Assembly (NCBI RefSeq): GCF_000568815.1
Contig: NZ_CP007201.1
Location: 620,001-684,000, forward strand
DNA: 64,000 bases
Source of the DNA: Sulfurospirillum multivorans DSM 12446
Lineage (GTDB): Bacteria > Campylobacterota > Campylobacteria > Campylobacterales > Sulfurospirillaceae
Reading direction: 5' to 3'
Position 1 is the first letter of the stretch, and the number at the start of each line of letters is the position of its first letter. Positions 7,017-46,150 of this stretch are shown here, one piece after another. Below the pieces are notes generated by a model. That model was not told the DNA's origin. It saw nothing but the letters and a program-made list of their open reading frames with translations, and made no database searches. A program made the translations under genes and the position numbers.

Positions 7017-8474
<1,458 letters not shown>

Positions 8475-8506
8475 GCATTATACGTTTTACATGTAAAGAA
8501 TATTCT

Positions 8507-8574
8507 GTTTCGAAAGAGACAAGCTTCAGTGCCACAGCGGCGAGCGTAGGTTTTTGGGGCAAAACCCAAAAACC
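8507..8574 (+). repeat. Two-hairpin intergenic repeat, copy A
   Basis: Hairpin 1 is GTTTC-GAAA-GAGAC (8507-8520), a GNRA-type tetraloop. Hairpin 2 is GGTTTTTGGG / CCCAAAAACC (8549-8558 and 8565-8574) with loop GCAAAA. Between them lie AAGCTTCAG and GCGTAGG. The same architecture recurs at 45467-45521 with different stem sequences but kept pairing and the same single-stranded words (AAGCTT, GCGTAGG, GGCAAA). It lies between guaB and metX, both on the plus strand. Confidence 0.65.
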
Positions 8575-8599
8575 GTGGTAAAAAGTAATAAGGAACGGT

Positions 8600-9709
8600 G
8601 TGAAAATTCAAACGGCGGTTGCCCATTTTGATGAACCCCTCTATTTGGAGAGTGGTCGTATCTTAGAAACCTACGATCTCAAATACGAGATGTACGGTGA
8701 AATGAACGAGACCAAAAGCAATGTCATCGTGGTTTTTCATGCCCTTACGGGAAGTTACCATGCGGCAGGTCGTTATGAAGGTGAGACCAAAGCAGGGTGG
8801 TGGGACCCGCTCATTGGAGATGGTAAGATCATTGATACGACGAAGCTTTGTGTCATCTGTGTCAATATTCTTGGGAGCTGTTTTGGCTCCACGGGACCGA
8901 TGAGTGTGAATGTTAAAACCAAAGAACCATTGCGCCTGAAATTTCCTGTTTTAACGATCAGCGATATGGTCAGAGCGCAAATGAACCTCTTTGCGCGCCT
9001 TGGTATCAAAGAGGCATACGCGATCATTGGAGGCTCTCTTGGAGGCATGCAGGGGCTTTGTATGTCCATTGAATATCCTGAGTTTGCCAAACGAGTGATT
9101 TTGCTGGCAACCACCTACGCGACAGGGCCTTGGGCGATTGCGTGGAATAAAATCGCGATTGAGGGCATCGTCAATGACCCTCGATTTAAAAATGGCAATT
9201 ATAATCCCGAAGATTTTGAAGAAGAGGGACTGCTCAGTTTTGCGATTGGTCGCATGGCGGGGCACATTAGCTTTTTAAGTCCCTATTCGATGAACAAAAA
9301 ATTTGGGCGTAATTACGTAGAGACGGACGGTTTGTACGAGCTTTTTGGACGTTTTCAAGTCGAGCGATACATGGAGTACAACGGTTACAGTTTTGCGAAA
9401 CGGTTTGATCCGCTGAGTTACCTTTACATCATTAAAGCGATGAATATCTTTGATGCGACGCGTAATTATGATTCATTGGAAGATTCGATCAAGCATATTA
9501 AGGCCAAATTGACCTTGATTTCATTTCAAGGCGATTGTCTGTTTATGCCCGAAGAGATGGCGTTGATTAAGACAACGATGGAAAATATGGGAAGAGCGGA
9601 CCTTGTCGATTATGTCTGCATTGATAGCCAATATGGGCATGATGCCTTTTTGGTTGAGTACGACAAGTTTGATTTTTACATTAAAAAAGCACTGGAATCA
9701 AAAGTTTAG
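8600..9709 (+). CDS. metX: Homoserine O-acetyltransferase
   Basis: Alpha/beta-hydrolase of 369 residues that transfers acetyl from acetyl-CoA to homoserine in methionine synthesis. The nucleophile is S146 in GGSLGGMQ, with the acid Asp near residue 312 and H347 in YGHDAF. The GTG at 8600 is preceded by AAGGAAC. The FHALTGSYHAAG oxyanion region near the N terminus is typical of MetX. A long structured repeat occupies the upstream intergenic region. xseB follows after 22 nt. Confidence 0.95.
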   Translation: MKIQTAVAHFDEPLYLESGRILETYDLKYEMYGEMNETKSNVIVVFHALTGSYHAAGRYEGETKAGWWDPLIGDGKIIDTTKLCVICVNILGSCFGSTGPMSVNVKTKEPLRLKFPVLTISDMVRAQMNLFARLGIKEAYAIIGGSLGGMQGLCMSIEYPEFAKRVILLATTYATGPWAIAWNKIAIEGIVNDPRFKNGNYNPEDFEEEGLLSFAIGRMAGHISFLSPYSMNKKFGRNYVETDGLYELFGRFQVERYMEYNGYSFAKRFDPLSYLYIIKAMNIFDATRNYDSLEDSIKHIKAKLTLISFQGDCLFMPEEMALIKTTMENMGRADLVDYVCIDSQYGHDAFLVEYDKFDFYIKKALESKV

Positions 9710-12543: not shown

Positions 12544-12604
12544 AAAATCGTGGAGCTTTTGAAGCTTAGCTTGGAAAGCGTATAAAAATAGATAAGGAAA
12601 GTAG

Positions 12605-45460: not shown

Positions 45461-45466
45461 ATTTCT

Positions 45467-45521
45467 GCTTCGAAAGAAGCAAGCTTTAGCGCAGCGTAGG
45501 CTGTTAGGCAAAGCCAAACAG
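45467..45521 (+). repeat. Two-hairpin intergenic repeat, copy B
   Basis: Hairpin 1 is GCTTC-GAAA-GAAGC (45467-45480). Hairpin 2 is CTGTT-A-GGC-AAA-GCC-A-AACAG (45501-45521). The linker AAGCTTTAG...AGCGTAGG matches copy A at 8507-8574. It lies between the convergent ttcA-like and recO genes and could also serve as a two-way terminator. Confidence 0.62.
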
Positions 45522-45532
45522 GCGTATCAAGA

Positions 45533-46150
45533 TCAAAACCCCTCCAATAAAATTTTCCATAACACATCAATTTGTTCATCATCCAGTGCTATGGTGCTCT
45601 GTTCTTCAAAAAGTTGCTTTACATGTAAAAGATCAAAGGTCTGATTCCACGCACACAGTTTATGTGCAGGTAAAAAACCTCGAATCAGTGTTAAATCATT
45701 TTCAATGCGCTCTTCGCAGTTAAAACAGATAAAATCATCGTGCAATCTTCCCTCATAAATCAAAAGTTTGATATAGGCTTCAATAGCGACCCGTTTAGGG
45801 TTCTGCTTTTGCCAAATAGTAGAACATGCTTCTAAAAGATCAAAATAAAAACTATCAATCGTTGCTACATCTTTGAGATGCGTGTAAAAAAGCCGAATAA
45901 AAGGCTGCCAAATCAGCATGCGTTCGCGCTGGTTATTCCAAGGCGTTCCTAGGTGCATAATGGAGCGAAGCTGAGGAATGGATGACTTGAGAGAGGGAAT
46001 CGCTTCAAAGTCAATTTTGTAGCCTAAATGAATCGTAGAGTGACGGGCACCGTAAAATCTATAAAGGGTTTTAATGCTGGTTTGCGTTAAAATGGTGACA
46101 ATTAAATCTTCGTCTTTGACGCGATTTAAATTGATGATGTATCCTTGCAT
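45533..46150 (-). CDS. recO: DNA repair protein RecO
   Basis: 205 residues. The N-terminal OB fold starts MQGYIINLNRVKDEDLIVTI, and a helical domain with a CXXC-like FNCEERIE segment follows. RecO loads RecA with RecR. The start at 46150 fits the family; an upstream in-frame ATG at 46165 adds MLKFF. The palindrome at 45619-45628 reads Leu-Leu-His-Val-Lys on this strand. Confidence 0.85.
   Translation of the reverse strand: MQGYIINLNRVKDEDLIVTILTQTSIKTLYRFYGARHSTIHLGYKIDFEAIPSLKSSIPQLRSIMHLGTPWNNQRERMLIWQPFIRLFYTHLKDVATIDSFYFDLLEACSTIWQKQNPKRVAIEAYIKLLIYEGRLHDDFICFNCEERIENDLTLIRGFLPAHKLCAWNQTFDLLHVKQLFEEQSTIALDDEQIDVLWKILLEGF

Follow-up and report, generated by a model that had tools for sequence, protein, structure and literature searches.

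The window analysed here, a stretch of 64,000 nucleotides, comprises positions 620001-684000 of the single-contig genome of Sulfurospirillum multivorans DSM 12446 (3,175,729 bases). Between guaB (7026-8474; TIGR01302) and metX (8600-9709; NF001209), the initial annotation placed an intergenic element with two hairpins at 8507-8574, and both the position and the gene neighbors agree with our analysis. The conserved limits are wider, from TTCTG at 8503 through an A-run up to 8584, and the whole element (copy A; + strand, 8503-8584; TTCTG ... CGTGGTAAAAA) corresponds to the covariance model match G000:C1:628503-628584, with a score of 85.7 bits and an E-value of 7.6e-16. Along the + strand, copy A consists of hairpin 1 (H1; 8507-8520; GTTTC-GAAA-GAGAC, with one G-T pair), the conserved core AAGCTTYAGYGCCACAGCGGCNAGCGTA together with the small hairpin 2 (H2) (8521-8548; GCC at 8531-8533 and GGC at 8539-8541), and hairpin 3 (H3; 8549-8574; GGTTTTTGGG-GCAAAA-CCCAAAAACC), with GTAG just before it. 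Both stems proposed for copy A are present, as are those of copy B, GCTTC/GAAGC and CTGTT/AACAG, which lies between convergent genes at 45463-45533 on the same strand (match G000:C1:665463-665533, 67.3 bits); the two-hairpin description holds for the named stems but omits the small third hairpin that copy A possesses and copy B has lost. A remnant with H3 only is found before murC (TIGR01082) at 12554-12588 (+ strand), a site at which the genomes G019 and G016 contain the full element. Taken alone, copy A folds better than its shuffled versions (z -2.42), and neither a promoter-like site nor a terminator was found adjoining it. Strong intergenic hairpins such as these could conceivably form an intrinsic terminator or attenuator, and a terminator-like module had been suggested for this locus; however, neither H1 nor H3 is followed by a T-run on either strand, the scan detected no terminator, and copies of the element are as frequent in divergent gaps as in convergent ones, so this explanation is largely refuted and very improbable. 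A separate observation in the 64-kb window concerns the highly iterated palindrome TTACATGTAA, which occurs 26 times, compared to 0.07 expected, both within and between genes (for example, at 8487-8496).

A DNA similarity search of the same genome yielded 11 matches, the last two of them weak. Alignment of 12 copies from this genome and a search with the covariance model built from that alignment (R2) recovered approximately 27 full copies scoring above 54 bits, which we denote fam-1, along with some 35 weaker matches, mostly of 65 nt. The fam-1 element is about 80 nt long; its three hairpins all form on the same strand and are connected by a nearly invariant core. In the alignment of the 12 copies, in which the core is largely invariant, 95.8% of the cells are paired and nine pairs show two-sided change, and none of 500 shuffles matched the alignment in either paired cells or covariation score. 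Among 41 sequences from the whole order, 95.6% of the cells remain paired, with 156 two-sided cells versus 47.5 in shuffles (0 of 500), whereas sliding the pairing reduces it to 30-44%. The individual helices behave accordingly: H1 is paired in 98.6% of the cells in this genome and in 99.0% order-wide, with two-sided changes in four of its five pairs in the latter set, and H3 (helix 4) shows such changes in six of 11 pairs within the genome and nine of 11 across the order; for hairpin 2, there is a single compensatory change, in copy 2412791. The order-wide covariation of fam-1 is decisive, and the earlier proposals that the element belongs to a repeat family and that its structure is under selection are both strongly backed: the covariance model search retrieved further copies in this genome and its relatives, in which the pairing is preserved, and the excess of two-sided changes is significant in both sets. 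The tetranucleotide GNAG that precedes H3 has T in most copies and A or C in some copies from Sulfurimonas (GAAG/GCAG).

The weaker class of R2 matches represents a second family, fam-2, which has a 5' half of its own (GCACC-AAA-GGTGC, then a covarying stem with the loop GCCGA) and a 3' module, AACGTAG-H3-CGTG, that is the same as in fam-1, with GNAG-H3-CGT common to the two families. In the fam-2 alignment, 97.4% of the cells are paired, again with none of 500 shuffles reaching its paired cells or covariation score, and many members carry an extra hairpin at each end. A dedicated model (R3) found 41 matches in the S. multivorans genome and from three to 56 per genome among the 24 genomes of the genus. 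The departures from canonical pairing are informative with regard to the strand involved. The ratio of G-T to A-C in the stems is 8:4 in the 12-copy fam-1 alignment, 17:1 in fam-2, 51:6 in the order-wide set, and 56:2 on hand-anchored H1 and H3 stems. A palindrome acting as a double-stranded site would be expected to accumulate G-T and A-C equally, which is not the pattern here; since the departures are mostly G-T, the folded molecule is, as judged from the alignments, most likely the sense strand, either as RNA or as single-stranded DNA.

The element is widespread. R2 matches were detected in all 24 Sulfurospirillum genomes, S. multivorans and 23 others, at 7-76 per genome, counts that include cross-hits to fam-2; the other genera of the same family have few R2 or R3 matches. 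The fam-1 core accompanied by quite different, still paired stems is found in Sulfurimonas, Sulfuricurvum, Sulfurovum and Hydrogenimonas. Scanning 84,980 species for the exact core returned 66 stretches, a set in which core conservation results from how the sequences were selected, the pattern itself fixing the core; outside the pattern, the stems take more than 10 forms and stay paired. By title, all of these stretches belong to Campylobacterota apart from two from one unplaced 'Proteobacteria' metagenome-assembled genome (MAG) with the full element and one from Rubrivivax without it; 65 are counted as Campylobacterota or probable Campylobacterota. Among 397 sampled genomes of the class, 22 from four genera contained a longer core, and none contained the reversed control. 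Tandem, head-to-tail copies of fam-1 were also seen. The core is absent from 2.9 million viral contigs, which were searched for phage carriage; Rfam 15 yielded no family match at gathering score, and a permissive scan of 8300-8750 produced a chance hit alone. No paper on the element emerged from literature searches for repeats in Sulfurospirillum or Campylobacterota. The family extends across the order in sulfur-metabolising Campylobacterota and apparently is uncatalogued. Some copies have additional sequences associated with them. Small hairpin-like inserts are nested in the element, namely, variants of TTTCARRGAAACTTYGTTTTG in Sulfurospirillum (among L036, L041, L043 and L046) and in L316, and ACCCTCACTTTTGGGTA in Sulfurimonas copies (L344, L363, L369). 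Copies from Hydrogenimonas and Campylobacterales MAGs (L325, L342, L364, L368, L372) share a tail like TTTAATGATAGAACGC after the element and have gene neighborhoods in common.

Comparison of orthologous sites reveals extensive presence-absence polymorphism. When the joined flanks of the S. multivorans copies were compared with relatives, the fam-1 site L033 was empty in six of them and the site L029 in five; at L033, the insertion brings the stop codon approximately three residues earlier. Other fam-1 sites (L018, L020, A438650) are older or lack a clean alignment. When 864 kb of the S. multivorans genome were set against 800 kb from G019, fam-2 proved polymorphic at A102128, A280922, B279079, B708960 and other sites, and many of the clean ones lose about 140 nt, corresponding to the core plus both end hairpins. 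At position 475783 of the S. multivorans genome, fam-1 is present in this species and fam-2 in G019, and G016 has neither. The guaB-metX gap itself holds fam-1 in nine species and other sequences in 13: a divergent, fam-2-like copy in G020, and short hairpins or an unrelated repeat in others. The gap of G014 has no element although G016 and G023, both closely related to it, have one, and the copy in G013 has mismatched stems. The gaps of G015, G017 and G007 (L106, L111, L115) contain a third, unrelated hairpin repeat, CTCTTTTTCTAACAAGAGTTGAGACAC..., in either orientation. Flank duplications at the empty sites vary, from about 11 nt with one mismatch (L029) and 8 nt (one fam-2 site) to 3-6 nt or unclear elsewhere, and the flanks established no target-site rule and displayed no constant target tetranucleotide. 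The presence of the element in one species and its absence, with clean empty sites, in the next indicate, as judged by genome comparison, that it is a mobile element rather than a fixed RNA gene, which bears on the small RNA proposed in the initial annotation. Insertions at orthologous sites are polymorphic in both fam-1 and fam-2, as is typical of MITEs.

The copies are mostly intergenic and, between unidirectional genes, are predominantly in the sense orientation, with sense to antisense ratios of 12:3 in this genome and 29:7 order-wide; for the pooled 41:10, p is 1.5e-5, a naive value, since related species and a number of orthologous sites are among the loci counted. A hand tally of the matches in the S. 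multivorans genome revealed no replication-strand bias (36:26, p 0.25, with the origin assumed at base 1). According to a simple ORF caller, the element is often located 15-50 nt upstream of a start codon. Together with the sense bias, the covariation on one strand, the nearly invariant unpaired core and the retention of copies at one site across species (guaB-metX, and a neighbor pair common to three Sulfurimonas loci), this arrangement could be taken to suggest a cis-regulatory or processing RNA, such as a riboswitch-like element, an RNase site or an mRNA stabiliser, that happens to spread. We consider this scenario unlikely and place it second among the alternatives: the neighboring genes mostly show no relationship to one another, many copies are antisense or lie between convergent genes, copy B lacks H2 and the G013 copy is mismatched in its stems, and Rfam contains no match. 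A shared neighbor gene also was sought, but the clusters among the order-wide loci look like orthologous sites.

The GTAG (GAAG or GCAG in some copies) before H3 resembles the tag of GTAG REPs, as described in PMC3733652, and suggests a further possibility, a REP proper, that is, a GTAG-tagged palindrome mobilised by a resident RAYT-like Y1 transposase. Y1 genes are present in 23 of the 24 genomes of the genus, with one to three and mostly one in each, and that of S. multivorans is RAYT-like, scoring just below the cut-off of the NCBIfam REP-associated tyrosine transposase model. However, this gene is bounded by GGGGTC and CCCTGACCC, as are most Y1 loci in the genus, the terminal inverted repeat type that fits GGGGWSAS in PMC3733652, and none of the 58 Y1 loci examined contains the element nearby, compared with 81 matches of the same profile in the positive loci. 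Co-occurrence fails in G369, G169 and G216; the element-rich G369, which is 99% complete and carries seven exact copies, has no Y1 match. Furthermore, REPs are 20-40 bp palindromes according to PMC3733652, as opposed to three hairpins and a conserved core in about 80 nt. A RAYT mobiliser is therefore unsupported by flank inspection, by two covariance or profile searches and by co-occurrence; on these comparisons, the element is apparently not linked to the Y1 transposase of the genus, and a REP proper, foremost among the alternatives, is improbable.

The interpretation that we favor, and consider probable, is a non-autonomous, REP/MITE-like mobile element of Campylobacterales that would be moved in trans and would become a folded spacer in operon mRNAs; comparison demonstrates its mobility and fold, and a mover, transcription and an effect on the adjacent genes are proposed. 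Under this scenario, a trans-acting enzyme would recognise the folded single strand and the unpaired core, and would copy or move the folded strand by analogy with REP/IS200-type hairpins. Once inserted between the genes of an operon, the element would be transcribed and persist as a folded intercistronic spacer, with the sense orientation tolerated or selected, and might alter mRNA processing or stability. A function at the RNA level is plausible. A mobile structured RNA is a doubtful alternative that we place third. In that case, the sense strand, folded and with its unpaired core almost invariant, would itself be the active molecule, either recognised by a dedicated protein or catalytic, and would spread via an intermediate consisting of RNA or a single strand, the two families having one 3' module in common. 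The family raises the question of how it is mobilised where no matching transposase is seen in the genome. It combines unusually clean covariation with presence-absence polymorphism, and provides a natural insertion set for testing the effect of a mobile hairpin on operon mRNAs.

Among known systems, GTAG-tagged REPs and REPINs, as described in PMC3733652 and PMC3116915, resemble the element in being short, intergenic and multicopy, with a hairpin bearing a G(T)AG tag, in forming subfamilies with compensatory stems and in being located between genes that are unidirectional or convergent; according to these sources, GTAG repeats also occur in Sulfurovum, which belongs to the same phylum. Unlike GTAG REPs, the element has three hairpins, a 28-nt conserved core and head-to-tail copies, and no RAYT linkage was found at the Y1 loci; the GNAG tag before H3 is internal and not at an end of the element. 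The family is closest to REPs in kind and departs from them in two defining respects, the 20-40 bp palindrome and linkage to a RAYT gene. The hairpin that fam-2 often has at each end is reminiscent of miniature elements derived from IS200/IS605, although no parent insertion sequence with such ends and no constant target tetranucleotide were found. Mosaic intergenic elements of the ERIC/BIME kind are modular sequences of about 80-140 nt with small internal insertions, and the element is similar to these in size, modular build, intergenic location and small internal insertions, a likeness of general description.
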